Below, in pieces: positions 1 to 13,002 of a stretch of 13,002 nucleotides of DNA (the first letter of the stretch is position 1; the number at the start of each line of letters is the position of its first letter). The position numbers and the translations under genes were made by a program. The stretch comes from Vulcanimicrobiota bacterium (GTDB lineage: Bacteria > Vulcanimicrobiota > Vulcanimicrobiia > Vulcanimicrobiales > Vulcanimicrobiaceae). The stretch spans positions 1 to 13,002 of the forward strand of contig JABCZE010000014.1 of assembly GCA_013289785.1 (NCBI GenBank), written 5' to 3'. The notes under the pieces are model-generated. The model was not told the origin of the DNA, searched no databases, and saw only the letters and a program-made list of their open reading frames with translations.

Positions 1-1002
1 TTCTTGTGGCTCAACCGGCAGCGGCTTGCGCGCCAGCACCGGTCCTCGGTCGGTTGCGGGCGTCACGCGATGGACCGTCGCCCCGGCCCACCGGCTTCCG
101 GCGGCCAGCGCGTCGCGGACGGCACGCGGACCACGAAACGCCGGAATGCGCGTACCGTCGGGGAGCCCGACGTCGTCGCGGCCGGGATCCAGCGGCAGAA
201 ACGCCGGATGGAGGTTGAGCATTTCGGGGAATGCCGCTACGAAGGCATCCGAAAGCAGATGCATCCAGCCGAGCAGCAGCACGAGTTCGGGCGCTTCGCA
301 GCGCACCACTTCGAGCAGTCGCTCGTCATACAATGCGCGCGTCTCTTCGTTGCGACGCCACGCCACCACGCGCGCCGGAACGCCGGCGGCGCGCGCTCGT
401 TCCATCGCACGCGCGTGCGAATCGTTGCTCACGAGTGCCACGATCTCTATCGGAAGGCTGCCAGTGCTCGAGGCATCTGCGACCGCTTGAAAGTTGCTTC
501 CGTTCCCCGACGCCATGACGAGCGTGCGCGGCCGCGGCGCGAGCAGCACCGCGCGATCGAACTCTTCTGCGACGACCGCGCCCACGGTATCGGCATAGTA
601 TCGGACCAACCCGTCGCCGCTCACCGCGGGAATCAAGGCGCGAGCATAGCCCCGTTCGCGCAACGCTTGGAGCGCGCGGCGCAAAATGAAGACGCCGAGC
701 CCGGTCTTACGCTCTTCCCTCACGACGCCAAAGGGCCCGAAGAGCCCGACGTCGCGCTCGCGTGCCAGTCCATTGAGCCAGCGAAACTTTAAGCCGCGCG
801 CATCGAGCGTCGCAAAGCCGATCGGCGCGTCGTCGCAGCGCGCGACGACATTCACGCCCGCTGCCGCCTCGGAGCTCCACGTGCCGCTAAAGGTTTGGTC
901 GATCCACGCCAGCGTGCGATCGCCGGCAACTTCGGTGGCTAGTGCCGATGAGTCCGGGGGCAATGCGGAGAGGTCGACGACGAGATTGCAGAGCGTCGCC
1001 AC
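1..1002 (-). CDS. purN: GNAT-like domain fused to phosphoribosylglycinamide formyltransferase (PurN), C-terminus cut by window edge
   Basis: The C-terminal half is PurN, which transfers formyl from 10-formyl-THF to glycinamide ribotide (third step of IMP synthesis, cytosolic). Visible PurN marks are the phosphate loop GNGSN at residues 166-170, the catalytic pair Asn263/His265 in NLHP, and Asp318 in VTPATDRGPV, matching E. coli N106/H108/D144. The His-Asp distance is 17 residues longer than in E. coli because of an insert around residues 270-290 (DDVGLPDGTRIPAFRG). Residues 1 to about 155 are not PurN. They look like a GNAT acetyltransferase fold, with an acetyl-CoA loop RKTGLG (R98-G103, pattern R-x-x-G-x-G), a following helix, and a late YYADTVGA segment. 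I read the whole frame and found no stop between the halves. The start is GTG at 1002, one base after the purM stop, so translation is probably coupled. 334 residues are visible. The PurN half is certain; the GNAT assignment is by motif and fold pattern only. Confidence 0.88.
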   Translation of the reverse strand, partial: MATLCNLVVDLSALPPDSSALATEVAGDRTLAWIDQTFSGTWSSEAAAGVNVVARCDDAPIGFATLDARGLKFRWLNGLARERDVGLFGPFGVVREERKTGLGVFILRRALQALRERGYARALIPAVSGDGLVRYYADTVGAVVAEEFDRAVLLAPRPRTLVMASGNGSNFQAVADASSTGSLPIEIVALVSNDSHARAMERARAAGVPARVVAWRRNEETRALYDERLLEVVRCEAPELVLLLGWMHLLSDAFVAAFPEMLNLHPAFLPLDPGRDDVGLPDGTRIPAFRGPRAVRDALAAGSRWAGATVHRVTPATDRGPVLARKPLPVEPQE

Positions 1003-1003
1003 G

Positions 1004-2071
1004 TCAGGGATGGACGACGACGCGCGGTTCCTCGCCGATGCGCGATTCGATCCAACCGACGACCTTTGCACCGGGAACCGCGCCAACCGCCGCCGCGGCA
1101 TCGGTGACCGGCACGATCAGCGTGAAGCCAACGCCCATATTAAAGATACGGTATCGCTCTTCGCCCAAGTCTCCACGCCGGACGAGTTCTTGCAGAATCG
1201 CGGGCACCTGCCAGCGTTGCTGCTCGAAGACGGCCTTGACGTTCTCCGGCAGTGTGCGCGGGAGATTCTCCAGCAAACCGCCGCCCGTGATGTGCGCCAT
1301 CGCCTTGACGCGCGCGACCCGTTGGATGGCGCGAACGGATTGATAGTACGACGGATGTTCGGCGAGCAACGCATCGGCATACGTCCCGCCGTCAAACGGA
1401 AGGTTCCCTTCGTCGCGCGAGATCAGCGAACGGGCGAGCGAATAGCCGTTGGTATGCAAGCCCACCGCGGGCAACCCGATAATCGCGTCGCCCGGCTCGA
1501 CGCCGCCCAGCCGCTCGAGGGCTGCGATCTCCACCATGCCCACGATGGTTCCCGCAAGATCGAAATGCGCGGGCTGATAGAGCCCCGGCATCTCGGCGGT
1601 TTCTCCGCCGAGCAACGCGCACTCGTGAAGACGGCAGGCGTGCGCGCAACCGCGCACGATTTCGGCCGCGACGGCGGGATCGAGTTTGCCTACCGCGAGG
1701 TAATCCAAAAAGAAGAGGGGCGATGCGTTGCAGACGAGGATGTCGTTGACGCAGTGATTGACCAGGTCGGCGCCGACCGTCGCGTACCGTCCAAGCTCGG
1801 CTGCAATCAGCACCTTCGTGCCGACGCCGTCGGTCGAGGCCACGAGCGCGCGGCTGGGGTCGCCCGGCATGCGAAAAAGCCCTGCAAAGCCGCCAATCGC
1901 GTCGAGTTGGCCGGCGTGACGCCATTGCCCCAGCACCGCACCGTAACGCGCGACGGCTTCATTTCCGGCGCTAACGTCGACGCCGGCTCGCGCGTAGCTG
2001 TCCGAACCGCTTTTTTCCTCCGTACGAGGATTCTCCCAGCTTTCTGCCATAGGCTGGCAGTAGTTCACCAT
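1004..2071 (-). CDS. purM: Phosphoribosylformylglycinamidine cyclo-ligase (AIR synthetase)
   Basis: PurM uses ATP to close FGAM into aminoimidazole ribotide, step 5 of purine synthesis. The protein is 355 residues, close to the usual 345. It shows the family start SYARAGVD (25-32), the nucleotide-binding STDGVGTK (79-86), GGETAEMPG (145-153) and AHITGGGLLENLPR. The ATG at 2071 has a modest GGTGGA 8 bases upstream. A second ATG at 2050 (MAESWENP) is equally compatible with the family because conservation begins only near residue 25, but it has no visible Shine-Dalgarno. It is followed after one base by the GNAT-PurN gene. It is divergent from pepA with only 14 bases between start codons, so any purM promoter must lie inside the pepA coding region or be shared. 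No promoter is convincing. Confidence 0.96.
   Translation of the reverse strand: MVNYCQPMAESWENPRTEEKSGSDSYARAGVDVSAGNEAVARYGAVLGQWRHAGQLDAIGGFAGLFRMPGDPSRALVASTDGVGTKVLIAAELGRYATVGADLVNHCVNDILVCNASPLFFLDYLAVGKLDPAVAAEIVRGCAHACRLHECALLGGETAEMPGLYQPAHFDLAGTIVGMVEIAALERLGGVEPGDAIIGLPAVGLHTNGYSLARSLISRDEGNLPFDGGTYADALLAEHPSYYQSVRAIQRVARVKAMAHITGGGLLENLPRTLPENVKAVFEQQRWQVPAILQELVRRGDLGEERYRIFNMGVGFTLIVPVTDAAAAVGAVPGAKVVGWIESRIGEEPRVVVHP
2044..2060. repeat. Short perfect inverted repeat at the purM/pepA divergent start
   Basis: CTGCCA at 2044-2049 and TGGCAG at 2055-2060 are perfect complements around a 5-base spacer (TAGGC). The palindrome covers the alternative purM start codon (2048-2050) and sits 26-42 bases ahead of the pepA start. 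That placement suits an operator or a small hairpin at the start of purM mRNA. A 6-base arm can occur by chance in GC-rich DNA, so the regulatory reading is only a possibility. Confidence 0.25.
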
Positions 2072-2072
2072 C

Positions 2073-2079
2073 GGAAAGG
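2073..2079 (+). promoter_or_regulatory. Ribosome binding site of pepA
   Basis: GGAAAGG lies 6 bases before the ATG at 2086 and fixes the pepA start. It lies within the 14-base gap between the divergent purM and pepA start codons, so the leader of one gene overlaps the start region of the other. Confidence 0.7.
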
Positions 2080-2085
2080 TCCACC

Positions 2086-3627
2086 ATGCAAGTTCGTCTT
2101 ACTCACGATGCGCCCAGCCACGTGCATACAGGAGCGCTCGTCGTCCCCTTTTTCTCAGATACCGCGCTCGAATCCACGGCCAAAGAGATTGATGACAAAC
2201 TCGGGGGCGTAATCGCCGGCGCGCTGGCCGCCAAAGAAATCCAAGGGCGCCTCGGTGAGAACGTCCTCATCTATGCGAAGGGCGAGCCGTATCAGCGCGT
2301 TCTCGCGGTTTCGCTGGGCGAGCGCGCGCGCTTCGAGCCCCACTTTCTCGCGCGCTATGCGGGCAGTGCCGTGCGCTATCTGGGTCGCCGCAATATCGAG
2401 CAGATCGCGATCGTGCTGCCGTTACAGGCGCAAGGCCAGGAGGCTGCGTGCGCTTCATTTATTAGCGAGGGCGCCATTACCGGCATCTTCGAGACGACTC
2501 TGTACCAGGAGAAGCCTGACCGTCGCAATGCTATGACTGAGGTTGCCATCATCGACGGCGGCCTCAACCAAGCCGAACTCGAGCGCGGGATCGCGCGCGG
2601 AACCGCACTCGGCAATGCGGTAAACCTGGCGCGTAGGCTGGCAATTACGCCGGCCAACTTGATGACGCCGACCCGCCTGGCCGAAGAGGCGACAAAAGTT
2701 GCCGAACAAAACGGGCTCGAGATCGACGTGCTCGACGAAGCGCGCGCGAGCCGCGAGGGCATGGGATCCTTTCTCTCGGTCGCGCGGGGCAGTGCGCAGC
2801 CGCCGAAGTTCATCGTGATGCGCTACAACGGCGATCCGTCGAGCAAAGAGCTGCTGGCGCTCGTCGGAAAGGGAATCACGTTCGACACGGGCGGCATCTC
2901 GATCAAACCCGCCGAGCGGATGGAGGACATGAAATACGACATGTCCGGCGGCGCCGGCGTGATCGCGGCGATGTCCGCGATCGCAAAACTGAAACCCAAA
3001 CTCAATGTCGTTGCCATCGTTCCGGCAACGGAGAACATGCCGGGAGGCAAGGCGACCAAACCCGGCGATATCGTGACGGCGATGAACGGCAAGACGATCG
3101 AGGTCATCAACACCGATGCCGAGGGCCGGCTAGTCCTGGCCGACGGAATCTGCTATGCAAATAAACTCGGCGCGACCAAAATCGTCGACGCCGCAACGCT
3201 GACCGGCGCGTGCGTCATCGCGCTGGGCCATGCTTCGTCGGCCGCCATAACGAACGACGACGCTTTCGTCGCCCAGTTCTTAGCTGCGGCCAAGCCCACC
3301 GGCGAGCGCTACTGGCAAATGCCCTACTACGAGGATTACACAAGCGCGATGAAGAGCGACATCGCGGACTTGAAGAACACCGGCGGCCGTCCCGCCGGCA
3401 CGCTGACCGCCGCCGCCTTCCTGCGCGAGTTTGCGGACAAGACGCCGTGGCTGCATCTCGACATCGCGGGAACGGCCTATCTCGAAAACGAGTCGCCCTG
3501 GCAGGCGAAGGGCCCGACGGGAACGCCCGTGCGCGCCTTTCTCTCGCTGGTCGAATCGCTCGCCGGCCAGCCTCTGATGGGCGGCGTCTCCGGCAACGGT
3601 GCGAGGTCAGCCGAGCTGAAGGTGTGA
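2086..3627 (+). CDS. pepA: Leucyl aminopeptidase, M17 family
   Basis: A two-metal cytosolic aminopeptidase that removes N-terminal residues from peptides, usually as a hexamer. The protein is 513 residues. The active-site set can be placed exactly: Lys262, Asp267, Lys274, Asp285, Asp344, Glu346 and Arg348, in the segments LVGKGITFDTGG, MKYDMSGG and NTDAEGRL. The spacing equals that of E. coli PepA (K270, D275, K282, D293, D352, E354, R356), so it should be active. The N-terminal third is the variable macro-like domain of the family. The start is supported by GGAAAGG upstream. The stop overlaps the panB start (GTGA). In E. coli, PepA also binds DNA; nothing in the sequence tells whether that holds here. 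Confidence 0.97.
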   Translation: MQVRLTHDAPSHVHTGALVVPFFSDTALESTAKEIDDKLGGVIAGALAAKEIQGRLGENVLIYAKGEPYQRVLAVSLGERARFEPHFLARYAGSAVRYLGRRNIEQIAIVLPLQAQGQEAACASFISEGAITGIFETTLYQEKPDRRNAMTEVAIIDGGLNQAELERGIARGTALGNAVNLARRLAITPANLMTPTRLAEEATKVAEQNGLEIDVLDEARASREGMGSFLSVARGSAQPPKFIVMRYNGDPSSKELLALVGKGITFDTGGISIKPAERMEDMKYDMSGGAGVIAAMSAIAKLKPKLNVVAIVPATENMPGGKATKPGDIVTAMNGKTIEVINTDAEGRLVLADGICYANKLGATKIVDAATLTGACVIALGHASSAAITNDDAFVAQFLAAAKPTGERYWQMPYYEDYTSAMKSDIADLKNTGGRPAGTLTAAAFLREFADKTPWLHLDIAGTAYLENESPWQAKGPTGTPVRAFLSLVESLAGQPLMGGVSGNGARSAELKV

Positions 3628-4439
3628 AAGGCAGCGAGAGCGCGCGTCCTTACGAGCCGGAGAAGAATCCGGCGATACGCCGTTTGACGGCGGGCGTCAT
3701 CAAACGCCGAAAAGGTAAAGCGCTTTTCCCGATCGCAACCGCGTACGACGCTCCATTTGGGCAGTTCGTCGAACGCGCCGGAATCGACGTGATCTTAGTC
3801 GGCGACAGCGTCGGCAACGTCGTCTTGGGTTTCGACGAAACGACGCCGGTCACGCTCGAAAGCATCATTTATCACACGCAGGCCGTCGTGCGTGGAACGA
3901 CTCGCGCGCATATCATGGCCGACATGCCGTTCGGGTCCTATCAAGTAAGCAACGAAGATGCGTTGCGTTCGGCGATTCGGCTCATCAAAGAGGGCGGCGG
4001 GTGCTCGGTGAAACTCGAGGGCGGGCGCGATCAAACCGACCGTATCCGCGCGATCACCGGCGCCGGGATTCCGGTCGTCGGCCATATCGGCGTCACCCCG
4101 CAAACGGCAGGGCTCGGCCCGGGATTCAAAATGCGGACGCACCGCGACCGGTTGATCGACGATGCACGCGCGGTCGAGGCGGCCGGCGCCTACGCGATCG
4201 TTCTCGAGGTCGTGGATTACGAGATCTCTCGCGAAATTACCGAGATGTTATCGATTCCGACGATCGGCATCGGCTCGGGCCCGCACTGCGATTCGCAAGT
4301 ACTCGTACTACACGATATCCTTGGGATGTATCCGCACTCGCCGAGTTTCGCCAAACGCTACGCGGAGATCGGGCAACTGGCGACGCAGGCGCTGGAGGCC
4401 TACGCCGAAGAGGTTCGCGACCGCACTTTCCCCCGCTGA
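3624..4439 (+). CDS. panB: 3-methyl-2-oxobutanoate hydroxymethyltransferase (ketopantoate synthase)
   Basis: PanB adds a hydroxymethyl group from 5,10-methylene-THF to 2-oxoisovalerate, the first committed step to pantothenate and CoA. With the GTG at 3624 the protein has 271 residues, normal for the family. The Mg ligands Asp61 (LVGDSVG), Asp100 (MADMPFG) and Glu132 (VKLEGG) and the catalytic Glu195 (IVLEVVD) are present, as is IGIGSGP. The frame stays open upstream into pepA, but that part is antisense-like composition with no homology, and GTG 3624 overlaps the pepA stop by 4 bases in the usual coupled arrangement. The Shine-Dalgarno is poor (AAGG lies too close), so the pair probably depends on coupling. 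No panC or panD is in view. Confidence 0.95.
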   Translation: MKGSESARPYEPEKNPAIRRLTAGVIKRRKGKALFPIATAYDAPFGQFVERAGIDVILVGDSVGNVVLGFDETTPVTLESIIYHTQAVVRGTTRAHIMADMPFGSYQVSNEDALRSAIRLIKEGGGCSVKLEGGRDQTDRIRAITGAGIPVVGHIGVTPQTAGLGPGFKMRTHRDRLIDDARAVEAAGAYAIVLEVVDYEISREITEMLSIPTIGIGSGPHCDSQVLVLHDILGMYPHSPSFAKRYAEIGQLATQALEAYAEEVRDRTFPR

Positions 4440-4525
4440 AGAATTTCGACAATGCCGGCCAGTTGGCACTCTGGGGCGTTACGGTCGCGGCATGCTGGAA
4501 ACCAACGATTGGTCCGACCCTTTGG
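4440..4525. other. Convergent intergenic gap between panB and the XRE regulator
   Basis: 86 bases lie between two converging stop codons. The only structure is a weak hairpin, ACCAA-CGA-TTGGT at 4501-4513, with no run of T beyond a few bases. It does not resemble a strong intrinsic terminator on either strand. No coding region or RNA gene is evident. Confidence 0.5.
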
Positions 4526-5056
4526 TTATCGCGTTGCGCGCTTTCGAACGCGTCCTTCTTGCGTCCGACGAAGGCCCTCGAGCGCGTCGAGCCGCCGCCG
4601 AATTGCCCGCAGTTCCTCGACGAGCGCGAGGCCCCCGGCAGCTAGATGACCCGCCTGCGCCGGCGACGGTGATTCCGTTGCGTCCTCGACGTCGCTAGCC
4701 GGCTCCTCACGCACGCGGGCACCGGCGCGCTCGAGCGCAGCGGTGATAAAGCTCTGCGCGCGGGCGCGCGCGGCTTCGCCGGATTTACGCCCGAGCGGGC
4801 GGACGTCCACGAACATCGCTGACTTGTTGGCTTCGACGAAGAGTCGCGCTTCTTCGCGTTCGAGACCGTAGAGCGTCTCTGCGGTCGTCCCGAGCGCCCG
4901 CGCAAGACGAACGACGATGCTGATTGAGGGATTGAGCCGCTGATCAGCCTCGATCTTAAAAAGCGTGGGGTGATTGACCTCGGCGCGGCGAGCCAGCTCG
5001 TTCTGGGACCATCCCAAAGCACGGCGCCGCGCGGCGATTCTTTTTCCCAGCGTCAC
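4526..5056 (-). CDS. Cro/CI (XRE) family helix-turn-helix transcriptional regulator
   Basis: Residues 3 to about 65 form a standard five-helix HTH_3 domain, with LGKRIAARRRALGWSQNELA, the recognition region EVNHPTLFKIEADQ, and ISIVVRLARALG ending in TAETLYG. Residues 66-176 have no recognised effector domain. They are Ala/Arg/Glu-rich with a likely C-terminal helix or coiled coil (VEELRAIRRRLDALE) and a basic tail. The start must be GTG at 5056 or later, because the preceding in-frame codon is TGA. An ATG four bases upstream (5060) is in another frame. It follows purF by 63 bases on the same strand and has its own extended -10. Its target is unknown. Self-regulation or control of the neighbouring purF, purM or pepA genes is conceivable from position only. 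Confidence 0.9.
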   Translation of the reverse strand: MTLGKRIAARRRALGWSQNELARRAEVNHPTLFKIEADQRLNPSISIVVRLARALGTTAETLYGLEREEARLFVEANKSAMFVDVRPLGRKSGEAARARAQSFITAALERAGARVREEPASDVEDATESPSPAQAGHLAAGGLALVEELRAIRRRLDALEGLRRTQEGRVRKRATR

Positions 5057-5064
5057 TCATCTGG

Positions 5065-5073
5065 ACTGTAGCA
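5065..5073 (-). promoter_or_regulatory. Extended -10 promoter element for the XRE regulator gene
   Basis: Read on the minus strand, TGC-TACAGT is a TGn extended -10 (four of six matches to TATAAT) ending exactly 8 bases before the GTG start at 5056. The predicted start of transcription is 0-2 bases before the start codon, and there is no Shine-Dalgarno, so the mRNA would be leaderless or nearly so. No good -35 is visible at 16-18 bases. The spacing is identical to that upstream of purF, which raises confidence. Confidence 0.45.
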
Positions 5074-5087
5074 CCGCGCAGCCGCGG
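5074..5087 (-). other. Small GC hairpin between purF and the XRE gene
   Basis: CCGCG (5074-5078) and CGCGG (5083-5087) form a perfect 5-base stem with a 4-base loop, immediately upstream of the XRE -10 element. There is no T tract, so it is not a classical terminator. It occupies the spacer region of the proposed promoter and could be incidental. Confidence 0.2.
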
Positions 5088-5119
5088 CCCTTGAACCGAT
5101 TGGTCTTGGCGAATGGCTG

Positions 5120-6493
5120 CTAGACGGGAGAAGCCAACGCCTGATGACCGGCGGGAACGTTGGGATATTCGCCGACGAAACAGCCGAGGCACATTTCGCT
5201 GCGCTTCCTTCCGACCGAGGCGATCAAGCCAGCTAAACTCAGATAGCCTAAGGAGTCTGCCCCGGTCTTGGCGCGGATCTCTTCGACCGTGTAGTTGGCA
5301 GCGATCAGTTCGCCGTAGGTTGCCATGTCGACGCCGAGATAGCACGGATGTTTGATCGGCGGCGAGGTGATGCGCAGATGCACTTCTCGCGCACCGGCCT
5401 CGCGCAGGAGCGCGACGATCCGGGGCGTCGTCGTGCCGCGCACGATCGAGTCGTCCACCACAATGACGCGCTGATCGCGCAGATTCTCGACGAGCGGATT
5501 GAACTTGAGGTGCACGCCGCGGGCGCGCATGTTCTGGTCGGGGCTGATGAACGTCCGCCCGATGTAGCGGTTCTTGATCAGGCCCTCGATATAGGGTAGC
5601 CCGCTCTCGGCGGCATACCCGATGCCGCCCGCGACCGCGGAGTCGGGCACCGCCATCACGACATCGGCGTCGACGGGATGCTCCTTGGCCAACTGACGCC
5701 CCATCGCATAGCGCGCCATGTAGACCGAGCGGCCATTGAGCTGCGAATCGGGACGCGCGAAGTAAATATACTCAAACGTGCACAGCGCCGGCTCCGCGGT
5801 CTCGACCGGCGTGAGGTGCGATTCCAAGCCTTGCGCGCTGATGCGCACGATCTCGCCGCGCTCGATTTCGCGCACGTACTGCGCGCCGATCGTGCCCAGC
5901 GCGCACGACTCCGACGCGACGACGTAGCCGCCGCCGTCGCTTAGCTTGCCAAGGCAAAGCGGCCGCACGCCCCAAGGATCGCGAAACGCGTAGAGCTCGT
6001 CTTGCGTGCAGAGCACCGTCGAGTACGCGCCGCGAGCCCGGGCGATGACCGCCTCGATCCGTTGGAGCATCGTGCCTTTGGACTCGACGATCAGTTTGGC
6101 CATTACTTCGGAATCCGACGTCGCCTGCAGCACCGTCGTCGGCGACAGCGTTTCGCGAAGCTCGTCGGTATTGGTGAGGTTTCCGTTATGGGCGAATGCG
6201 AAGTCGCCCAGCTCGCTTCGCTCGAGCAGCGGCTGTGCGTTCACGACGATCGAGGAACCACTCGTCGAATAACGCGTGTGGCCGATCGCAATGTAACCGC
6301 TGAGGTCGCTTAAGATGTCTTCGTCGAAGATGGCGCCGAGCAGCCCCATCTCCTTGTGCGAGCGAATCGAGCCGCCGTCGGCTGCAGCGATGCCCGCGGA
6401 CTCTTGCCCGCGATGTTGCAGCGCATATAGCGCGAAAAACGCGAGCCGCGCGGCATCGCGCCCGGGTGCGAAGACCCCCGTTATCCCGCACAT
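5120..6493 (-). CDS. purF: Amidophosphoribosyltransferase, [4Fe-4S] type, no propeptide
   Basis: The first committed enzyme of purine synthesis: PRPP plus glutamine gives phosphoribosylamine. The protein is 457 residues. The N-terminal Ntn glutaminase starts with nucleophile Cys2 (MCGITGVFAPG) and has LQHRGQES. The C-terminal phosphoribosyltransferase domain has the PRPP loop VIVVDDSIVRGTT (343-355). Cys238, Cys384, Cys435 and Cys438 match the four cluster ligands of the B. subtilis enzyme (C236, C382, C437, C440), so an oxygen-sensitive [4Fe-4S] cluster is expected. The B. subtilis enzyme has an 11-residue propeptide. Here an in-frame TAA lies at 6505-6503, three codons before the ATG with no start between, so Cys2 must be exposed by Met removal alone. 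It has its own near-perfect -10 and sits 22 bases after the BI-1 gene. Confidence 0.97.
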   Translation of the reverse strand: MCGITGVFAPGRDAARLAFFALYALQHRGQESAGIAAADGGSIRSHKEMGLLGAIFDEDILSDLSGYIAIGHTRYSTSGSSIVVNAQPLLERSELGDFAFAHNGNLTNTDELRETLSPTTVLQATSDSEVMAKLIVESKGTMLQRIEAVIARARGAYSTVLCTQDELYAFRDPWGVRPLCLGKLSDGGGYVVASESCALGTIGAQYVREIERGEIVRISAQGLESHLTPVETAEPALCTFEYIYFARPDSQLNGRSVYMARYAMGRQLAKEHPVDADVVMAVPDSAVAGGIGYAAESGLPYIEGLIKNRYIGRTFISPDQNMRARGVHLKFNPLVENLRDQRVIVVDDSIVRGTTTPRIVALLREAGAREVHLRITSPPIKHPCYLGVDMATYGELIAANYTVEEIRAKTGADSLGYLSLAGLIASVGRKRSEMCLGCFVGEYPNVPAGHQALASPV

Positions 6494-6501
6494 CTCACAC
6501 C

Positions 6502-6510
6502 ATTATACCA
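6502..6510 (-). promoter_or_regulatory. Extended consensus -10 promoter of purF
   Basis: On the minus strand TGG-TATAAT is a perfect -10 hexamer with a TGn extension, in the 22-base gap between the BI-1 gene and purF. It ends 8 bases before the purF ATG at 6493. With the usual 6-7 base distance, transcription would start at the A at 6495 or the A of the start codon itself. There is no Shine-Dalgarno (GGTG is weak and close), so purF mRNA is predicted to be leaderless or to have a 2-base leader. No clear -35 is present, as is common for extended -10 promoters. Confidence 0.6.
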
Positions 6511-6515
6511 GGCTG

Positions 6516-7187
6516 CTAGTCCGACGAGCGCCTCCCACCGAAAATCTGAAGCAAGGCAAGGAAGATGTTGATCGCGTCGAGGTAGATGCTCGTCGCCATG
6601 AGGACGGGCGTCAAGCCGTCTCCGCCGGCGCGCAGCCGCGCGAAATCGATCAGAACGAGGCCGGAGAAAATGACGAGCGTCAGCCACGCATAGGTCTCCG
6701 GATGGATGAACTTCACGAAGATCGAAACGACGCCGAGCACGATCAGTCCCAGCAGCGCAATCATGAAGATGCCTTGGAAGCGCCGTAGATCCAGCCCGGT
6801 CGCATAAACGATGGCGGCAAGCGCGAACATCCCCAGGCCCGTGGTTAGGGCGGCGTTGACCACGACGTCGGGGCCAAAGGCGCGGACGTACTGGCCGATG
6901 ACCGGCGCGATGCCGACGCCTTCGCAGAACGTGAAGGCATAAAAGAGCAAGAGCGACAGCGGTTCGTTGCGGCGGACGGCATTGATGGAGATGAGCAGAA
7001 CGAAGCCGACGATCATCGCGACGAGGCCGACGCCGGGCGCGAGGTCTTGGAAGAGCCACGCCGCAAGCGCCGTTATGCATAAGCCCAGCGCGGTGATTCC
7101 GAGAACTTGCGCCAGCAGCGACCGCGCGGGAACCGCCGGCGCGAGCGGTTGCCCAAACTGGTTTTGCGGTTGAATGCCAAAAGCCAT
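6516..7187 (-). CDS. Bax inhibitor-1 / YccA-YbhL family membrane protein
   Basis: An inner-membrane protein of 223 residues with about seven hydrophobic segments, roughly at 27-46, 51-70, 76-97, 108-129, 138-158, 164-183 and 192-216, and a short hydrophilic N-terminus. The family includes E. coli YccA and YbhL and the pH-gated calcium leak protein YetJ of B. subtilis. Asp181 (VLIDFARL) and Asp204 (IYLDAINIF) lie 23 residues apart, close to the two-aspartate pH sensor described for YetJ. The start is ATG 7187, preceded by GAGGG four bases upstream, 11 bases after the purD stop. The frame continues far upstream but only as a shadow of purD. It probably ends the guaA-purD transcript. A link to purine synthesis is not evident. 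Confidence 0.9.
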   Translation of the reverse strand: MAFGIQPQNQFGQPLAPAVPARSLLAQVLGITALGLCITALAAWLFQDLAPGVGLVAMIVGFVLLISINAVRRNEPLSLLLFYAFTFCEGVGIAPVIGQYVRAFGPDVVVNAALTTGLGMFALAAIVYATGLDLRRFQGIFMIALLGLIVLGVVSIFVKFIHPETYAWLTLVIFSGLVLIDFARLRAGGDGLTPVLMATSIYLDAINIFLALLQIFGGRRSSD

Positions 7188-7198
7188 GACGCCCTCTA

Positions 7199-8488
7199 CT
7201 ATCCTCTTTCCGACTGCCAGGTTGCAGGCGCGGCGATATCCGTGCGGTAGGTCAAGGCGGCGCTCCCCAGGCGGCCGGCGAGCCCCTTGACGCTCTCGTA
7301 GGCTCGCGAGCGGGCTTCGTCGAGGGTCTCGCCCAGCGCGGTAACGGTAAGAACGCGTCCGCCTCCGCTGCTGACGGTTCCGTCGGCCAGCGTTGAGGCT
7401 CCCCAGAATGCCTGACAACCCTGCGGAAGCGAAACGTCGGAATCGAGACCCCGCAGCGGGGTGCTGCTGCGCGGGTAATCGCTGGTCGCGAGTACGACGC
7501 CGACGCACCGTTGCGGCGAGACCGTCGCGAGCGAAAGGTCCATCGCACCCTGCGCCGCGGAGTGCAGCAGCATCGCAAAATCTCCGCCGATGCGCGGTAC
7601 GAGCACTTGCGTTTCGGGATCTCCAAAACGCGCGTTGAACTCGATGACGTGTGGCCCGGCGGCATTCCACATCAGCCCGCAGTACAACACGCCGACGTAC
7701 TCTTCACCCTCTGCAAGAAGTCCCCGCAGCAACGGCGCGAGGATGCGTTCGCGCACCGCATCGTCGAGATCGTCGGGAAAACCGTTCGGCGGCGAGTAGG
7801 CACCCATGCCCCCGGTATTTGGACCGCTATCGCCGTCGCCGGCACGTTTATAATCGCAGGCAGCCGCGAACGGCACGATCGCGCGTCCGTCGCAGATTGC
7901 AAAGACGCTCACTTCGCGGCCGCGGATCGGCTCCTCGAGCAGCAGGTCGAGGCCGCCTCCTGGAATCCGGCTGCCTTCGTACCAATCGCTGACGACGGCG
8001 CGCGCCACATCCGGGCCCGGCGCAATGACGACGCCCTTACCCGCGGCAAGTCCATCGGCTTTAACGACGACGCCGCCTTTCCACTGCGACAGCGCGCTGC
8101 GAGCTGCGTCAAGTGAATGGATGACGATGGCTTTTGCTGTCGGAATGCCGTGACGTTCCATGAAGCGTTTGGCGAAGATCTTGCTTGACTCCAAACGTCC
8201 GGCGGAACGGTTGGGGCCGAAGACGGTAATCCCGGCCTCCCGAAGCCGATCGCCAACGCCGGCGGCAATCGCCGTCTCCGGGCCGAGGACGACCAGGTCG
8301 ATGTCTTCGCGAAGGGCACGATCCGCTAATCCCTTGCCGTCGGTTGCCGAAATCTCCCAGTTTGCTCCACGCGAGCCCGTGCCCGCATTTCCCGGCGCGG
8401 CAAAAATCGCTTCACAGGAGGGCGATTGCGCGAGTCGCCAGGAGAGCGCATCTTCGCGCGCACCGTTACCAACAACGAGGATTCGCAC
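7199..8488 (-). CDS. purD: Phosphoribosylamine-glycine ligase (GAR synthetase)
   Basis: PurD joins glycine to the unstable product of PurF, using ATP (step 2). The protein is 429 residues, the normal length. It is an ATP-grasp enzyme with an N-terminal Rossmann-like domain (MRILVVGNGARE), LVVLGPE, the FGPNRSAGRLESSKIFAKRF region, KADGLAAGKGV, the signature GDSGPNTGGMGAYSP and the metal-binding EFNARFGDPETQ. The usual GGREHA near the N-terminus reads GAREDA here, so the family His is an Asp, an unusual variant. The start is GTG 8488, with GGGAG six bases upstream, three bases after the guaA stop. It is tightly coupled between guaA and the BI-1 gene. Confidence 0.97.
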   Translation of the reverse strand: MRILVVGNGAREDALSWRLAQSPSCEAIFAAPGNAGTGSRGANWEISATDGKGLADRALREDIDLVVLGPETAIAAGVGDRLREAGITVFGPNRSAGRLESSKIFAKRFMERHGIPTAKAIVIHSLDAARSALSQWKGGVVVKADGLAAGKGVVIAPGPDVARAVVSDWYEGSRIPGGGLDLLLEEPIRGREVSVFAICDGRAIVPFAAACDYKRAGDGDSGPNTGGMGAYSPPNGFPDDLDDAVRERILAPLLRGLLAEGEEYVGVLYCGLMWNAAGPHVIEFNARFGDPETQVLVPRIGGDFAMLLHSAAQGAMDLSLATVSPQRCVGVVLATSDYPRSSTPLRGLDSDVSLPQGCQAFWGASTLADGTVSSGGGRVLTVTALGETLDEARSRAYESVKGLAGRLGSAALTYRTDIAAPATWQSERG

Positions 8489-8491
8489 GTT

Positions 8492-10033
8492 CTACTCCCA
8501 CTCGACGGTGGCCGGCGGTTTCGTCGTAATATCGTAGGCCACGCGATTGACGCCGCGTACTTCATTGACGATCCGCGACGAAATTCGCTCCAAGAGCGCA
8601 TGCGGCAGACGCGCCCAGTCGGCGGTCATGCCGTCCTCGCTGGTGATCGCCCGAATCGCCACGAGATTTGCGTAGGTGCGTCCGTCGCCCATGACGCCGA
8701 CGCTCTTCACCGGCGTCAGCACGGCAAAATACTGCCACGGGTGCGGTTCGAGCGGCGCCGAGTCGATCTCTTCGCGAACGATCGCGTCGGCCTCGCGAAC
8801 GATCGCCAAACGCTCCTCGGTCACGTCGCCGATGATCCGTACCGCCAGACCGGGACCGGGAAACGGTTGGCGCGATACGATTGCATCGGGCAAGCCGAGC
8901 GCCGCACCGAGCACGCGCACTTCGTCTTTAAAAAGCGCGCGCAGTGGCTCGATCAGCGAAAGATTCATTTCATCGGGAAGCCCGCCAACGTTGTGGTGCG
9001 ACTTGATCTTTTGGCCGGCTTTGCTTTGCGGCGTCTTCGATTCGATGACGTCGGGATAGAGCGTGCCCTGCACGAGATATTTGACGCCTGGAATCTTCGC
9101 GGCCTCCTCGTCGAAGACGGCGATGAACTCGTGGCCGATCGCCAGCCGCTTGCGCTCGGGATCTTCGATGCCGGCCAGCTTGCCCAGAAATCGCTCGCGC
9201 GCGTCGACCGCGATTACGTTGAGATGCAGCACGTCTCGAAACGCTGCAACGACTTGTTGCGCTTCATTCATTCGCAGCAAACCGTGATCCACGAAGATGC
9301 ACGTGAGCTGTTCTCCGATCGCGCGCGCGACCAGCGTCGCGGCGACGGCAGAATCCACCCCGCCGGAGAGCGCGCAGATCGCTCTATCGCTGCCGACGCG
9401 TTCGCGGATTTCGCGCACCGCGCTATCGAGAAAGGACTCCATCTTCCAGTCGCGGCCCAGGCCGGCGATCGCGTGCAGAAAGTTGTCGAGAACGGTGCGC
9501 CCGTGTTCGGTGTGCACGACTTCGGGATGAAACTGCACGCCATAGATCTTCTTCTCCGGGTTGCCGATTGCGGCGACGTGGCAGCGCGCCGTCGCAGCCA
9601 GCGCACGATACCCATCCGGCAGCGCGACGACCGAATCGCCGTGCGACATCCACACCCGCGATTCTTCCGGGACGCCGTCAAAGAGCGGCGTTTCACGATC
9701 GGCGACCACGAGCGTGGCCGGACCGTACTCGGCGTGATCGAGCTGTACCAACTCCGCGCCGATGTCGCGAGCCAGAAGCTGCATGCCGTAACAGATGCCG
9801 AGAATCGGCACGCCGGCCTCCACGATCGCGGGATCCATCTTCGGCGCACCGTCTGCCAGCGTGCTTTCGGGGCCGCCGGAGAGAATCAGCGCCGCGGGAT
9901 CGCGCAACGAAAGGGCGCTCCAGGCAGCGTCGTATGGCACGATCTCGCAGTAGACGCCCAGCTCCCGTGTCCGGCGCGCAATCAACTGGCTGTATTGCGC
10001 GCCGAAATCCAGGATCAGAACGGTCGGCTGCAT
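8492..10033 (-). CDS. guaA: GMP synthase, glutamine-hydrolysing
   Basis: GuaA converts XMP to GMP with ATP and glutamine. The 513-residue single chain has a class I glutamine amidotransferase domain with triad Cys81 (GICYGMQLL), His169 and Glu171 (QFHPEV). The ATP-pyrophosphatase domain carries the P-loop SGGVDS (223-228) and VDHGLLR. The C-terminal dimerisation domain includes RQPFPGPGLAVRI and ends in YDITTKPPATVEWE, the typical family end. The start is ATG 10033, with an AGGGAGGG sequence just upstream. It follows tpx by 9 bases and is followed by purD after 3 bases. The other guanine-branch gene, guaB, is not in the window. Confidence 0.98.
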   Translation of the reverse strand: MQPTVLILDFGAQYSQLIARRTRELGVYCEIVPYDAAWSALSLRDPAALILSGGPESTLADGAPKMDPAIVEAGVPILGICYGMQLLARDIGAELVQLDHAEYGPATLVVADRETPLFDGVPEESRVWMSHGDSVVALPDGYRALAATARCHVAAIGNPEKKIYGVQFHPEVVHTEHGRTVLDNFLHAIAGLGRDWKMESFLDSAVREIRERVGSDRAICALSGGVDSAVAATLVARAIGEQLTCIFVDHGLLRMNEAQQVVAAFRDVLHLNVIAVDARERFLGKLAGIEDPERKRLAIGHEFIAVFDEEAAKIPGVKYLVQGTLYPDVIESKTPQSKAGQKIKSHHNVGGLPDEMNLSLIEPLRALFKDEVRVLGAALGLPDAIVSRQPFPGPGLAVRIIGDVTEERLAIVREADAIVREEIDSAPLEPHPWQYFAVLTPVKSVGVMGDGRTYANLVAIRAITSEDGMTADWARLPHALLERISSRIVNEVRGVNRVAYDITTKPPATVEWE

Positions 10034-10042
10034 CGCCCTCCC

Positions 10043-10585
10043 TTACGCAGCGGCGGCGGCAGCGGCGTGAAGGGCGGCATCATAATCGGGTTCGCTGGCA
10101 ACTTCGGGGACGATCTCGACGTACGAAATCGTGCGATCTTTTCCGATCACGACGATGGCTCGCGCCAAAAGGCCGAGCTCCGAGATCAGCAGGCCGTAGT
10201 TCGTGCCGAAGCTGTGGCTCCGGTAATCGGAGAGCATGTCGAGCTTCACGTCGCCTTCGGCCGTGCACCAGCGGGCCTGCGCAAACGGCAAATCCATGCT
10301 GACCACGGCGGCCTTCACCCCTTCGGGTAGCTCGCCCAGGCGATCGTTGAACTTCTTGGATTCGAGGGAGCAGACGCTCGTGTCGAGCGAAGGGACGACG
10401 ATCAATAACGCGGCGCGGTTACCTTCGTCGAGAAGCGTCTCCGGAGTGACGGTCGAGAGATCGCCGGAGGTCAAGGTAAAGCTGGGTGCCGGATCGCCGC
10501 GTCGCAGCGCCGGCCCGAGCAGCGTCATCGGTTGTCCTTTGAACGTCACCACGCCGGCACGCTCTTGAACGTTGTCAACGGTCAT
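10043..10585 (-). CDS. tpx: Thiol peroxidase (Tpx-type atypical 2-Cys peroxiredoxin)
   Basis: Reduces hydrogen and alkyl peroxides with electrons from thioredoxin. The protein is 180 residues, slightly longer than the usual 165-170. Peroxidatic Cys72 lies in PSLDTSVC (Thr69 is the family T-x-x-C threonine) and resolving Cys107 in LPFAQARWC, the hallmark Tpx spacing. The C-terminal EPDYDAAL is typical and is followed by an unusual run of seven alanines. The start ATG 10585 has a strong Shine-Dalgarno five bases upstream. A TTGACC at 10626-10621 could be a -35, but the matching -10 (TTTTCT, 18 bases on) is poor, so an independent promoter is uncertain. It lies 32 bases after purP. Confidence 0.96.
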   Translation of the reverse strand: MTVDNVQERAGVVTFKGQPMTLLGPALRRGDPAPSFTLTSGDLSTVTPETLLDEGNRAALLIVVPSLDTSVCSLESKKFNDRLGELPEGVKAAVVSMDLPFAQARWCTAEGDVKLDMLSDYRSHSFGTNYGLLISELGLLARAIVVIGKDRTISYVEIVPEVASEPDYDAALHAAAAAAA

Positions 10586-10590
10586 GTACT

Positions 10591-10596
10591 ACCTCC
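10591..10596 (-). promoter_or_regulatory. Ribosome binding site of tpx
   Basis: GGAGGT on the minus strand, five bases before the ATG at 10585. It is the clearest Shine-Dalgarno in the window and contrasts with the SD-less starts of purF and the XRE gene. Confidence 0.8.
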
Positions 10597-10617
10597 AGAA
10601 AAGCGAATCGAATGAAT

Positions 10618-11814
10618 TCAGGTCAACACGTCCGGGAGCCGTTTGGTGTCGCGGGCCATTACGACTTCCATCGCAATCCGTTCGCCGACTGAGACGTCGC
10701 GGCCCCAGCGGTAGGCCGAATACGGAGTAAATCGCGTCCCCGGCGAGCCCGGTATACGAAGCGACACGTCGTAGCAAACGAGTTCCTTTGGCGGACCGGC
10801 CGCCACGATACATTGCAGCGCGAACGGTCCGATGACGCCGGGCGGTTGCGCCTCACGCGCGGCGCGAACGAAGCGCTCGCCCATGTCAAACGCCGGCTCC
10901 AACATCGACTCCACGACCGTCGCCGCGATGTGACCCGCCTCTTCCAAGCGCATCGTGATTCCGCGAACCGCTTCGAACGCCGACGGCGGTACGTTGCGGA
11001 AGCCCTCCAAGTTGGTCTGCCGCCGCGTATCGGTGCCGCTCAACTCGAGCTCCACCAAAAGCGGCGAGTAGAAAAAGTTGAAGTTCACCGAGGGGCCCAG
11101 GGCATATTCCTCGATTCTCGCCGACGCAAGGCCCGCGGCGCTCAACGTCCCTTCGTCCATCAGGTGATCGGCCGTCGCGCGGTACTCCTCCGGCGACGAC
11201 GCGAGAAAGAAAGCGCGTTCAAACGAAACGCGCGCGTGTGGCGCCTTCACCATCACCAGGCAGTCGATCTCGTCGGGAGTCGCATACCGCCGCGGGTGCC
11301 GAATCCCCGCCGCTCGCATCAGCGAGTATTGGTCCGTCTCCACGGAGCCTGTCCTGAGCGCAGTAATGTCATCCTGAGCGGAGTCGAAGGACGAAGGGCG
11401 CTCTTCGGCTTTGAGCAGGGCGCGGTTTCCGAAGAACGGCACCAGCATCCGCCGCTCGATTTCCTCGTACTCGTACTTTTCGTGGAGGTAGACCTCGAAG
11501 GAGCGATTGGGAACGAAGATGACGTTCTCACGAAGCAGCCGTTGCTGCACCTCCTCGTCGAGGATATCAGAGAACGCTTGCAGTTCGAGCACGGCGTCGA
11601 CGCAGCCGCGGCCGACGGGCTGCTCGCGGCGAGCAAAATGCCGCAGGTAGGTCTGCTCGCGGCCCTTGGCGGTAACGACCAGGTTGCGCAGCGCCTGCGC
11701 GCGCGCGCCGTAGGCCACCTCGAGCGCCGAGTGGCTTCCGATCGAACAGAGCGTGAGGCGAGCAGGGTCGTACGCTGCGACAATCCTTCGACTCCGCTCA
11801 GGATGACATACCAC
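10618..11814 (-). CDS. purP: PurP-family formate-dependent AICAR ligase (FAICAR synthetase-like), carrying two repeat-derived segments
   Basis: PurP of archaea formylates AICAR with formate and ATP, replacing the folate-dependent PurH domain. Similarity to M. jannaschii PurP is clear throughout: SIGSH (24-28, His28 matching AICAR-binding His27), AKGREQTY, FFGNRALL, AGIRHPRRYATPDEID, IEEYALG, FFYSPL, PPGVIGPFALQ and a C-terminal GERIAMEV. The protein is 398 residues against 361. Much of the excess is residues about 140-158, encoded by a dispersed repeat. The N-terminus (CHPERSRRI, 3-11) is encoded by a second copy. The start is GTG 11814, 7 bases after cydB, with no Shine-Dalgarno; it puts the GSH motif one residue from its M. 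jannaschii position. The frame stays open to 11883 inside cydB. M. jannaschii has HGSF where this protein has NRSF, so it may be a PurP paralogue with another substrate. Confidence 0.8.
   Translation of the reverse strand: MVCHPERSRRIVAAYDPARLTLCSIGSHSALEVAYGARAQALRNLVVTAKGREQTYLRHFARREQPVGRGCVDAVLELQAFSDILDEEVQQRLLRENVIFVPNRSFEVYLHEKYEYEEIERRMLVPFFGNRALLKAEERPSSFDSAQDDITALRTGSVETDQYSLMRAAGIRHPRRYATPDEIDCLVMVKAPHARVSFERAFFLASSPEEYRATADHLMDEGTLSAAGLASARIEEYALGPSVNFNFFYSPLLVELELSGTDTRRQTNLEGFRNVPPSAFEAVRGITMRLEEAGHIAATVVESMLEPAFDMGERFVRAAREAQPPGVIGPFALQCIVAAGPPKELVCYDVSLRIPGSPGTRFTPYSAYRWGRDVSVGERIAMEVVMARDTKRLPDVLT
11352..11391 (+). repeat. Dispersed repeat, copy A, inserted in frame within purP
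   Basis: The core at 11366-11391 is 26 bases and matches copy B (11784-11809) exactly in inverted orientation. Next to it, TCCTGAGCGCAGT (11352-11364) and TCCTGAGCGGAGT (11372-11384) form a 20-base-period direct repeat with one mismatch. On the purP strand it is translated as SSFDSAQDD followed by ITALRTGS, a peptide signature of a repeat family scattered through many bacterial genomes. It adds residues absent from archaeal PurP, without breaking the frame. Confidence 0.85.
11784..11809 (-). repeat. Dispersed repeat, copy B, at the cydB/purP junction
   Basis: 26 bases identical to the copy A core, on the opposite strand. It begins 12 bases after the cydB stop and is translated in purP as CHPERSRRI, directly after the presumed GTG start. 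The ends of the element (TCCT and AGGA) can pair, but the hairpin is imperfect. Its position suggests it replaced the native 5' end of purP. Confidence 0.85.
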
Positions 11815-11821
11815 CGGCGCG

Positions 11822-12808
11822 TCATTCGACGCGAACCTTTCCGGCCATGCGCCGCCAGACGATGGGCGCGTAGACGGCGACACCGGCGATTCCGATCAGC
11901 GTCGCGGTCAGCGCGCAGGCCAGCGCGGCCTCGGAAGGGGCGGCCGCAAAGATCGAGATGCCGCTGCTGCGCGCGGGAAAGGCCGGCAGGAGGTATGGGA
12001 AGATCGTGCCGGCACACGCGGCGAGCAGCGTTGCGATAAAGCACGACGACATAACGAAGGCCGCACCGGCGCGTCCCGCCCGCGCGCTGCGCCACATCGC
12101 AGCCAACGCGATCAGCGAGAGCAGCGGCATCGCGAAGAGCCAGGGGGCTCGCAGCGGCGCATTCATCGAAACGGTCAGCGCCGTGACGGCGAGGTAGAGG
12201 ATCAAGACCAGCCACGAGCCGCGGGCGACGATGCGGAGCGCTCTGGCGGCAAGCTTCCCCTCAATCCGCATCGCCACAAATGCGGCGCCGTGCACGCACA
12301 GCGTCGCGAGCGCAAAGACTCCAACCAGCAGCGCGTAGGGATTGAGCAAGAACGCAAAGGTGCCTTGGAAGTATCCCGCCGCGTCGAGCGGCACGCCGCG
12401 CAGCAGATTCCCCAGTGCAATGCCGAAAACGAAGATCAAGAGCGCGCTCGAGAGACAGAACGCGGCGTCCCAAAACTGGTGCCAAACCTCCGACGGCAAG
12501 TGCCCGCGCAGCTCCAGCGCGATGCCGCGGAACATCAGCAGCCACAGCACGACGATGAAGGGGAGATAGAAGCCCGAAAACGAGGAGGCATAGGCCACCG
12601 GAAAGAGGGCGAAGAGCGCGGCTCCGGCGGCGATCAGCCAAACTTCATTGCCGTTCCAAAACGGCCCGATACCGGCCATCGTCGCGGCGCGTTCGCGATC
12701 CGAGCGCGCGATCAGCGGCGCGATTGCCGCAACGCCGAGATCGTAGCCGTCGAGCAGCACGTACATCGTCAGCATGAAGGCGATGGCGATAAAGCCGGCG
12801 ACGCTCAC
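11822..12808 (-). CDS. cydB: Cytochrome bd ubiquinol oxidase subunit II
   Basis: CydB is the membrane partner of CydA in the bd-type terminal oxidase, which oxidises quinol and reduces oxygen with high affinity without pumping protons. The protein is 328 residues with eight or nine hydrophobic spans. It shows the family start FIAIAFMLTMYVLLDGYDLG, the FWNGNEVWLIAAG segment, a hydrophobic FALFPVAYA, and a long helix bundle to the basic end WRRMAGKVRVE. The start is GTG 12808, which overlaps the cydA stop by 4 bases; GGAG lies about 10 bases upstream. The frame remains open to 12982, but that part is a shadow of cydA. It is followed after 7 bases by the purP start. Confidence 0.95.
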   Translation of the reverse strand: MSVAGFIAIAFMLTMYVLLDGYDLGVAAIAPLIARSDRERAATMAGIGPFWNGNEVWLIAAGAALFALFPVAYASSFSGFYLPFIVVLWLLMFRGIALELRGHLPSEVWHQFWDAAFCLSSALLIFVFGIALGNLLRGVPLDAAGYFQGTFAFLLNPYALLVGVFALATLCVHGAAFVAMRIEGKLAARALRIVARGSWLVLILYLAVTALTVSMNAPLRAPWLFAMPLLSLIALAAMWRSARAGRAGAAFVMSSCFIATLLAACAGTIFPYLLPAFPARSSGISIFAAAPSEAALACALTATLIGIAGVAVYAPIVWRRMAGKVRVE

Positions 12809-13002
12809 GCCGGCTCGCTCCACGACGGGCCTCGCCCGATCTCCCGCAGGACGAGATACAGAAAGAGGACGCCGAGCAAAAAGTACATTCCGGCAAACCC
12901 GATGAGTGTGAAGATCGTCTCCCCGCTGGAAACGGTCGGCGAGCCTCCGGCCGCCGTCTTCATCAAACCGTAAACGACCCACGGCTGGCGCCCGACCTCG
13001 GC
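12805..13002 (-). CDS. cydA: Cytochrome bd ubiquinol oxidase subunit I, C-terminal 65 residues
   Basis: Only the C-terminus is in the window; the rest lies beyond the right edge. The first visible residues AEVGRQPWVVYGLMKT are the conserved CydA motif (GRQPW) that precedes the last transmembrane helix. That helix follows as FTLIGFAGMYFLLGVLFLYLVL. The protein ends in GRGPSWSEPA and its TGA overlaps the cydB GTG. The length class of the quinol loop cannot be judged from this fragment. Confidence 0.93.
   Translation of the reverse strand, partial: AEVGRQPWVVYGLMKTAAGGSPTVSSGETIFTLIGFAGMYFLLGVLFLYLVLREIGRGPSWSEPA

Follow-up and report, generated by a model that had tools for sequence, protein, structure and literature searches.

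A clade-specific fusion of a GNAT domain to the purine-pathway formyltransferase PurN within a single Vulcanimicrobiota family

Bifunctional fusions of the ArgH(A) type join a GNAT acetyltransferase to a metabolic enzyme, with both halves serving one known pathway, and PurU, the formyltetrahydrofolate deformylase, carries an N-terminal accessory domain, ACT rather than GNAT, in front of its formyl-transferase domain. The fungal protein RmNag (PDB 4zm6; PMC4680927) is a GNAT fused to a GH3 enzyme domain and is reported to acetylate glucosamine, with Asp834 and Trp835 lining the sugar pocket and the Y842A substitution abolishing transacetylation, and in the fungal GH3-GNAT Ngs1 the GH3 part is the sensor for the GNAT (PMC5063960). 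GlmA, the glucosamine N-acetyltransferase of Clostridium acetobutylicum (PDB 5kf1, 5kf2, 5kga, 5kgh), is a GNAT of related fold. Here we analysed a stretch of 13,002 nucleotides from a Vulcanimicrobiota bacterium (assembly GCA_013289785.1, contig JABCZE010000014.1, positions 1 to 13,002; hereafter the window), at whose start lies a gene in which a GNAT domain is joined without a break to PurN, the glycinamide ribonucleotide (GAR) formyltransferase.

Two domains in one reading frame

The fusion gene follows purM directly, with 1 nt between the purM stop and its own GTG start (Table 1). The first-pass annotation, made from the letters of the window, had described a frame open to the window edge, and its coordinates, strand and frame were all correct. 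The contig end cuts the gene at residue 334. The closest database protein, P0002 (from a protein search, among the best 120 of 1123 matches), shares 95% identity with the fusion over this part and is 364 residues long in full. In the AlphaFold model of these 364 residues, both domains are packed (predicted TM score, pTM, 0.94), and no low-confidence segment appears at the junction.

Profiles, fold and conservation back the proposal that a GNAT and an active-looking PurN share one protein, and the doubt raised at first pass, that the N-terminal part might lack any GNAT profile or fold match, was dispelled by both. Acetyltransf_1 (PF00583) matches residues 46–137 at E 9.1e-5 (Pfam; 23.2 bits, above the gathering cut-off of 20.7), and in alignment A1 the GNAT profile matches 67 of 96 rows at E 1e-3, 13 of the 96 having no GNAT. 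Modelled alone with AlphaFold, residues 1–155 reached a predicted local distance difference test score (pLDDT) of 93.9 and a pTM of 0.89, with the elements in the canonical GNAT order beta1-alpha1-alpha2-beta2-beta3-beta4-alpha3-beta5-alpha4-beta6. Their nearest solved folds are GlmA (5kf1/5kf2), with a fungal GH3-GNAT among the nearest too, and these two are also the best profile matches in the PDB. A single stand-alone GNAT compared with PDB sequences gave no match at E 0.01; the relation to GlmA emerged only with a profile. The acetyl-CoA loop RKTGLG stands at residues 98–103, exactly where it had been placed. Across 82 whole fusions from the window's family, Arg98 and Gly103 are each kept in 79, and Trp42, Glu45 and Tyr136 each in 77. 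Tyr136 is also present in 15/15 stand-alone GNATs of the class and phylum and in all 30 sampled from the wide family, the sample being every fourth of 119 relatives among the matches listed.

The place of the gene at a contig end, within a genome bin that is fragmented and 66% complete, would suit an assembly or annotation artefact that merged two genes, and an assembly frameshift had been raised at first pass. The same fusion is nevertheless present in independent assemblies, running in one frame in 82 of 85 loci from separate genomes, several of them on contigs longer than 300 kb. Because the fusion recurs in this way, we reject an artefact, the chance of which we regard as negligible.

The PurN half most likely works as a conventional GAR formyltransferase and would formylate GAR using 10-formyltetrahydrofolate. 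Formyl_trans_N matches residues 159–271 (Pfam, E 1.8e-31), the PurN fold was also found, and an alignment count showed the catalytic Asn263, His265 and Asp318 kept in every locus. On the TIGR00639 equivalog model, with a cut-off of 150.1 bits, the window protein, truncated by the contig end, scored 128.1 bits and P0002 149.1, just below the cut-off; among unfused PurN proteins of the class, L058 (121.0) and L075 (120.9) fell below it and L065 (205.3) above. Three of the four long-loop PurN proteins scored on this model were just or well below the cut-off. No purT above cut-off was found in 13 tested genomes of the window's family, a set that does not include the window's own genome, so PurN is probably the sole enzyme for its step there.

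An extra loop of 17 residues between the catalytic His and Asp, noted at first pass, is present as claimed: alignments to PDB 4ds3 and 1c3e each contain a 17-residue gap, which against 4ds3 falls at residues 277–293. It is not specific to the fusion, and we rejected it as part of the novelty, since unfused PurN of the class carries it too (L058 and L065 are examples of unfused long-loop PurN, as is P0256), as do most of the sequences closest to the unfused PurN from the phylum genome G056. Among the best 120 of these homologs, a script called 88 long and 28 short, left unscored 3 that are long by eye, and found 1 without the NxHP motif, giving 91 with the long loop, Chloroflexota included.

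Table 1. Features of the fusion gene and its upstream neighbour in the window
Feature	Coordinates	Strand	Remarks
GNAT-PurN fusion frame	GTG start 1002 to base 1	minus	open throughout; base 1 is the contig's first base
purM (AIR synthase)	1004..2071	minus	PF00586 and PF02769; immediately upstream of the fusion
GNAT domain, residues 1-155	538..1002	minus	Pfam PF00583, AlphaFold model, nearest folds
Trp42-x-x-Glu45 motif	868..879	minus	common to GlmA (Trp193, Glu196); invariant in alignment A2
P-loop RKTGLG, residues 98-103	694..711	minus	acetyl-CoA loop, pattern (R/Q)xxGx(G/A); from sequence
beta5-alpha4 loop, residues 128-134, remodelled	601..621	minus	exceeds that of stand-alone relatives by 2-3 residues
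Tyr136, putative general acid	595..597	minus	aligned with GlmA Tyr297
Junction between domains, residues 156-158	529..537	minus	short
PurN (GAR formyltransferase) domain, residues 159-334	1..528	minus	cut by contig end
PurN Asn263 and His265 (NLHP)	208..216	minus	85/85 loci
17-residue extra PurN loop, residues ~277-293	124..174	minus	between catalytic His and Asp; gap against 4ds3, 1c3e
PurN Asp318	49..51	minus	85/85 loci

Distribution and single branch of the fusion

P0002, used as query against 149 phylum genomes, gave a match in 118, of which 89 (hand count) belong to the window's family of uncultured bacteria, here f1. Our examination covered 85 f1 loci, one per genome, leaving out G009, G011, G012 and G075, which gave fragmentary matches. 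The three loci without both halves whole in one frame differ in kind: L019 and L158 start at a contig end within the GNAT, and at L075, in genome G128, a normal-length purN follows straight behind purM with no GNAT, on a contig of 3562 bases. The L075 PurN groups among the PurN of its own genus (8 rows, support 97), which makes deletion of the GNAT the simplest reading, resting on that one contig. By eye, the N-terminus of this PurN looks like the fused form of the genus at its start and at the junction, which would fit an in-frame loss of the GNAT. Excluding G128, the first start lies between -29 and +16 nt of the purM stop in 65 of 84 family loci (script, hand count); of the remaining 19, 3 have no purM on the stretch, 10 have a purM end that the script did not cleanly find, and 6 have a later start.

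Sister families keep the two genes apart. A PurN match without GNAT was found in all 18 of their genomes (f2, n=4; f3, n=14), and 14 of the 18 have a separate GNAT gene of the same kind elsewhere. Of the 17 loci there with purM on the stretch, 15 have it immediately upstream of purN, and in two genomes of one genus it lies 1.6–2.1 kb away. Outside the class, matches in the phylum were PurN-like apart from a single weak GNAT (G056). The first pass had proposed to check whether the domain order marks one clade; within the phylum, it does. In f1 genomes there was no second match besides pieces of the fusion (an overlapping pair in G001; G011, G118, G123) and weak formyltransferase matches, and therefore the stand-alone GNAT copy seems to be gone.

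Ten f1 genomes (G015, G030, G082, G083, G084, G087, G088, G091, G116 and G120) have neither the fusion nor purM above cut-off; a further 11 match-less phylum genomes lie outside that listing and may include f1 members. As these ten also lack purM, and no purT was found in the 13 genomes tested for it, the purN locus is most simply missing from the bins. We prefer such a missing stretch to the alternative, a real loss of purine synthesis; G030 is 94% complete.

Phylogenies place the fused domains together. In a GNAT tree of 70 sequences, 41 fused GNATs form one side of a branch with a Shimodaira–Hasegawa-like approximate likelihood ratio (SH-aLRT) support of 96, and a larger branch (100) unites the fused GNATs with 14 stand-alone GNATs of the class. 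The family PurN likewise forms one side of a branch, with a support of 92, below the 95 mark. All trees were built by a quick method; the GNAT and PurN trees took about half of the fusions, and the tree used for state changes all 85 loci. Because fused GNATs and family PurN each form one branch and the sister families keep separate genes, the likeliest history is a single insertion, in the family ancestor, of a GNAT gene between purM and purN, with fusion. A stand-alone gene would have moved in frame into this position, so that the GNAT would now be made together with the purine enzymes and in equal number with PurN.

Conservation, acceptor region and candidate roles

Most copies of the fusion are under selection as proteins. 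In 74 of 82 fusions, all five key GNAT positions are intact (Trp42, Glu45, Arg or Gln98, Gly or Ala103 and Tyr136), and the whole proteins have diverged to ~41–56% identity. Nei-Gojobori ratios of nonsynonymous to synonymous change (dN/dS) were obtained for 14 of 15 chosen pairs, one pair having a partial GNAT. They ranged over 0.06–0.28 for the GNAT half in 13 of the 14, with 0.44 in one pair that has few silent changes, and over 0.06–0.31 for the PurN half.

We then compared the region that would receive the acceptor. In GNATs, the acceptor is held by the regions of positions 35 and 43 and the beta5-alpha4 loop. The span from Ile124 to Tyr136 measures 12–13 residues in all 82 fusions, versus 10 in 45/45 stand-alone GNATs, and Leu132 (75/82 fusions) falls within the inserted loop residues. 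Asp35 is present in 81/82 fusions, its place being taken by Arg in 10/15 stand-alone GNATs of the class and phylum; for Ser43 (80/82) the stand-alone residue is Ala in 8/15. Some of these clade-specific positions may face PurN instead of the acceptor. Asp287-Trp288 of GlmA, which we take to be its sugar site, with Tyr297 as the general acid, align to columns 125–126 of the window protein, or one column further along if the loop is fitted starting at the Tyr. In either register, the sugar-site Asp (column 125/126) and Trp (126/127) are absent from 82/82 fusions, and the wide-family GNATs have Asp in 0/30 and Trp at 126 in 8/30. PDB entries record crystals of the GlmA mutants D287N and Y297F, the former with a ligand whose name begins N-acetylg. 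Given the absent Asp and Trp, the longer loop and the fixed clade-specific positions, the acceptor of the fused GNAT probably differs from that of GlmA.

These residues bear directly on whether the domain could be an unchanged amino-sugar acetyltransferase, acting on glucosamine or cell-wall fragments and fused to PurN for expression only. The standing of GlmA and a fungal GH3-GNAT among the nearest folds, and as the two best profile matches, speaks for this, as do some gene neighbourhoods. Of eight plasmid regions with a wide-family GNAT, seven are annotated, and in four of these a GH3 or beta-N-acetylhexosaminidase gene adjoins the GNAT; the other three show sugar ABC genes only, ABC genes with an unannotated gap behind, and neither (Mesobacillus). 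Since the sources other than Mesobacillus are all rhizobial relatives, the regions are not independent. For the stand-alone class GNATs, we listed the neighbours of at least 15 loci, among which no purine genes were noticed by eye, and profiled eight neighbouring frames. Two are D-Ala-D-Ala carboxypeptidases (L042, L050) and one, directly beside the GNAT, a family-5 solute-binding protein (L049), which count in its favour; a GH125 alpha-mannosidase, an AstE-like protein, an MFS transporter and an EPSP synthase count against it, and the eighth frame had no match. With the Asp and Trp columns changed throughout the fusions and the loop remodelled, even though some wide-family members have the Trp, we consider an unchanged amino-sugar enzyme improbable.

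At first pass, three roles had been offered for the GNAT: a sensor that binds acyl-CoA, a tether of PurN to PurM or PurD, and an enzyme modifying a small molecule or protein; all three stay candidates. The reading we favour, to which we give about an even chance, is that the protein combines a working PurN with an acetyl-CoA-dependent N-acetyltransferase acting on a small amine other than glucosamine, its acceptor site remodelled at or after a single fusion. In most members the GNAT would remain an active acetyltransferase; remodelling, at or after the fusion, would have turned it most likely to another small amine, with GAR and phosphoribosylamine as candidates. Such an activity fits the kept active-site residues best. 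Several observations weigh against it. Eight fusions in eight genera have lost at least one of the five key residues, G128 has purM and then purN directly with the GNAT gone, and parsimony on the tree requires 8 changes for these eight fusions plus G128. The middle Gly101 of the P-loop is kept in only 47/82 fusions (though likewise in only 8/15 stand-alone GNATs of the class and phylum; 30/30 sampled wide-family GNATs have it), and the GlmA Asp287 column holds Pro, Ala, Gly or Thr. The scattered losses and G128 suggest that GNAT activity is dispensable in some lineages and not needed for PurN.

Two other roles fit such losses. If the GNAT had been captured by accident and served only to fold with and stabilise PurN, as a partly vestigial add-on in slow decay, the repeated state changes, the 35 of 82 fusions without Gly101 and the strong erosion of L081 and L082 would follow naturally. 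This is hard to square with a GNAT dN/dS close to that of PurN in most of the 14 pairs, with five active-site positions retained in the great majority of fusions despite the divergence of the whole proteins, or with clade-specific conserved positions such as Asp35, and we regard it as possible but unlikely. We hold a similarly doubtful view of an acetyl-CoA sensor, in which the domain would bind acetyl-CoA or CoA and shift PurN activity through a rigid contact, linking purines to carbon and energy, with catalysis secondary or lost. The confident packing of the two domains agrees with this, as do the retention of the domain in frame where Tyr136 or Trp42/Glu45 is lost and the loop remodelled in every whole fusion; yet most members retain the catalytic Tyr, Trp and Glu, beyond what binding alone would need, L069 and L081 show decay even of the P-loop, and G128 keeps PurN without the domain. 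In L081 (G071), L082 (G072) and L069 (G022), several key GNAT residues are gone, with the frame and PurN intact.

A more specific proposal is that the target of the GNAT is GAR or phosphoribosylamine, acetylated on its free amine, or else a lysine in PurN or PurM, and that this reaction competes with formylation and so would put de novo purine synthesis under acetyl-CoA control. We consider this version rather unlikely. To our knowledge, no other organism has such a regulatory link, an acetyl-CoA-dependent control at the PurN step.

Neighbouring genes and comparison with known systems

Elsewhere in the window, positions 10618–11883 (minus strand) encode a protein with DUF1246 and DUF1297, both PurP domains, near guaA and purD; such a protein also occurs at 2370–2867 of contig C218 in genome G000. 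PurP is the archaeal FAICAR synthetase. DUF1297 was found in 40 of the 41 genomes searched (the window's own and relatives), mostly in two copies, and in 3 of 14 control genomes, all three archaea. A PurH match was found in 40 of the same 41 genomes, the exception being the window's own incomplete genome, and was above cut-off in only 2. By eye, the PurP-like frame at ~11200–11800 (minus strand) contains the strings CHPERSRRI and SFDSAQDD, which resemble translated short dispersed repeats in or beside the gene.

Across a whole bacterial family, a very common enzyme of central metabolism is thus coupled in one protein to an acetyltransferase whose acceptor loop has been remodelled. Since fusions often reveal activities that belong together, the acceptor of the GNAT is a lead to a link between acetyl-CoA and purine synthesis, or to an unrecognised amine produced alongside it. 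Intact, decayed and deleted GNAT copies form a natural comparison series, and if the GNAT is only a packing domain, the family would offer a clean case of enzyme capture and decay.

Among known systems, the C-terminal half of GlmA is the best match by both profile and fold. It shares with the fused GNAT the FSGxWxxE motif, the GPxGx...RxxGLG stretch and the general-acid Tyr; GlmA differs in an extra N-terminal GNAT-like stretch (a weak profile match) and in its Asp287-Trp288 pair, where the fused GNAT, a single domain joined to PurN, has other residues. RmNag and Ngs1 have GH3 as the partner and the GNAT region C-terminal, and RmNag keeps Asp834/Trp835 (PMC4680927, PMC5063960). From described PurN (TIGR00639; PDB 3auf, 1cde, 3dcj) the fusion protein differs by its N-terminal GNAT and its 17-residue loop, and P0002 scores 72.3 bits on the PurU profile against a cut-off of 285.95. 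Automated annotation already names such proteins GNAT or formyltransferase, and P0103 both; beyond these names, searches of an open-access library for a GNAT-PurN fusion listed no description of it. We therefore rate GNAT-PurN as a clade-specific fusion of two known domains.
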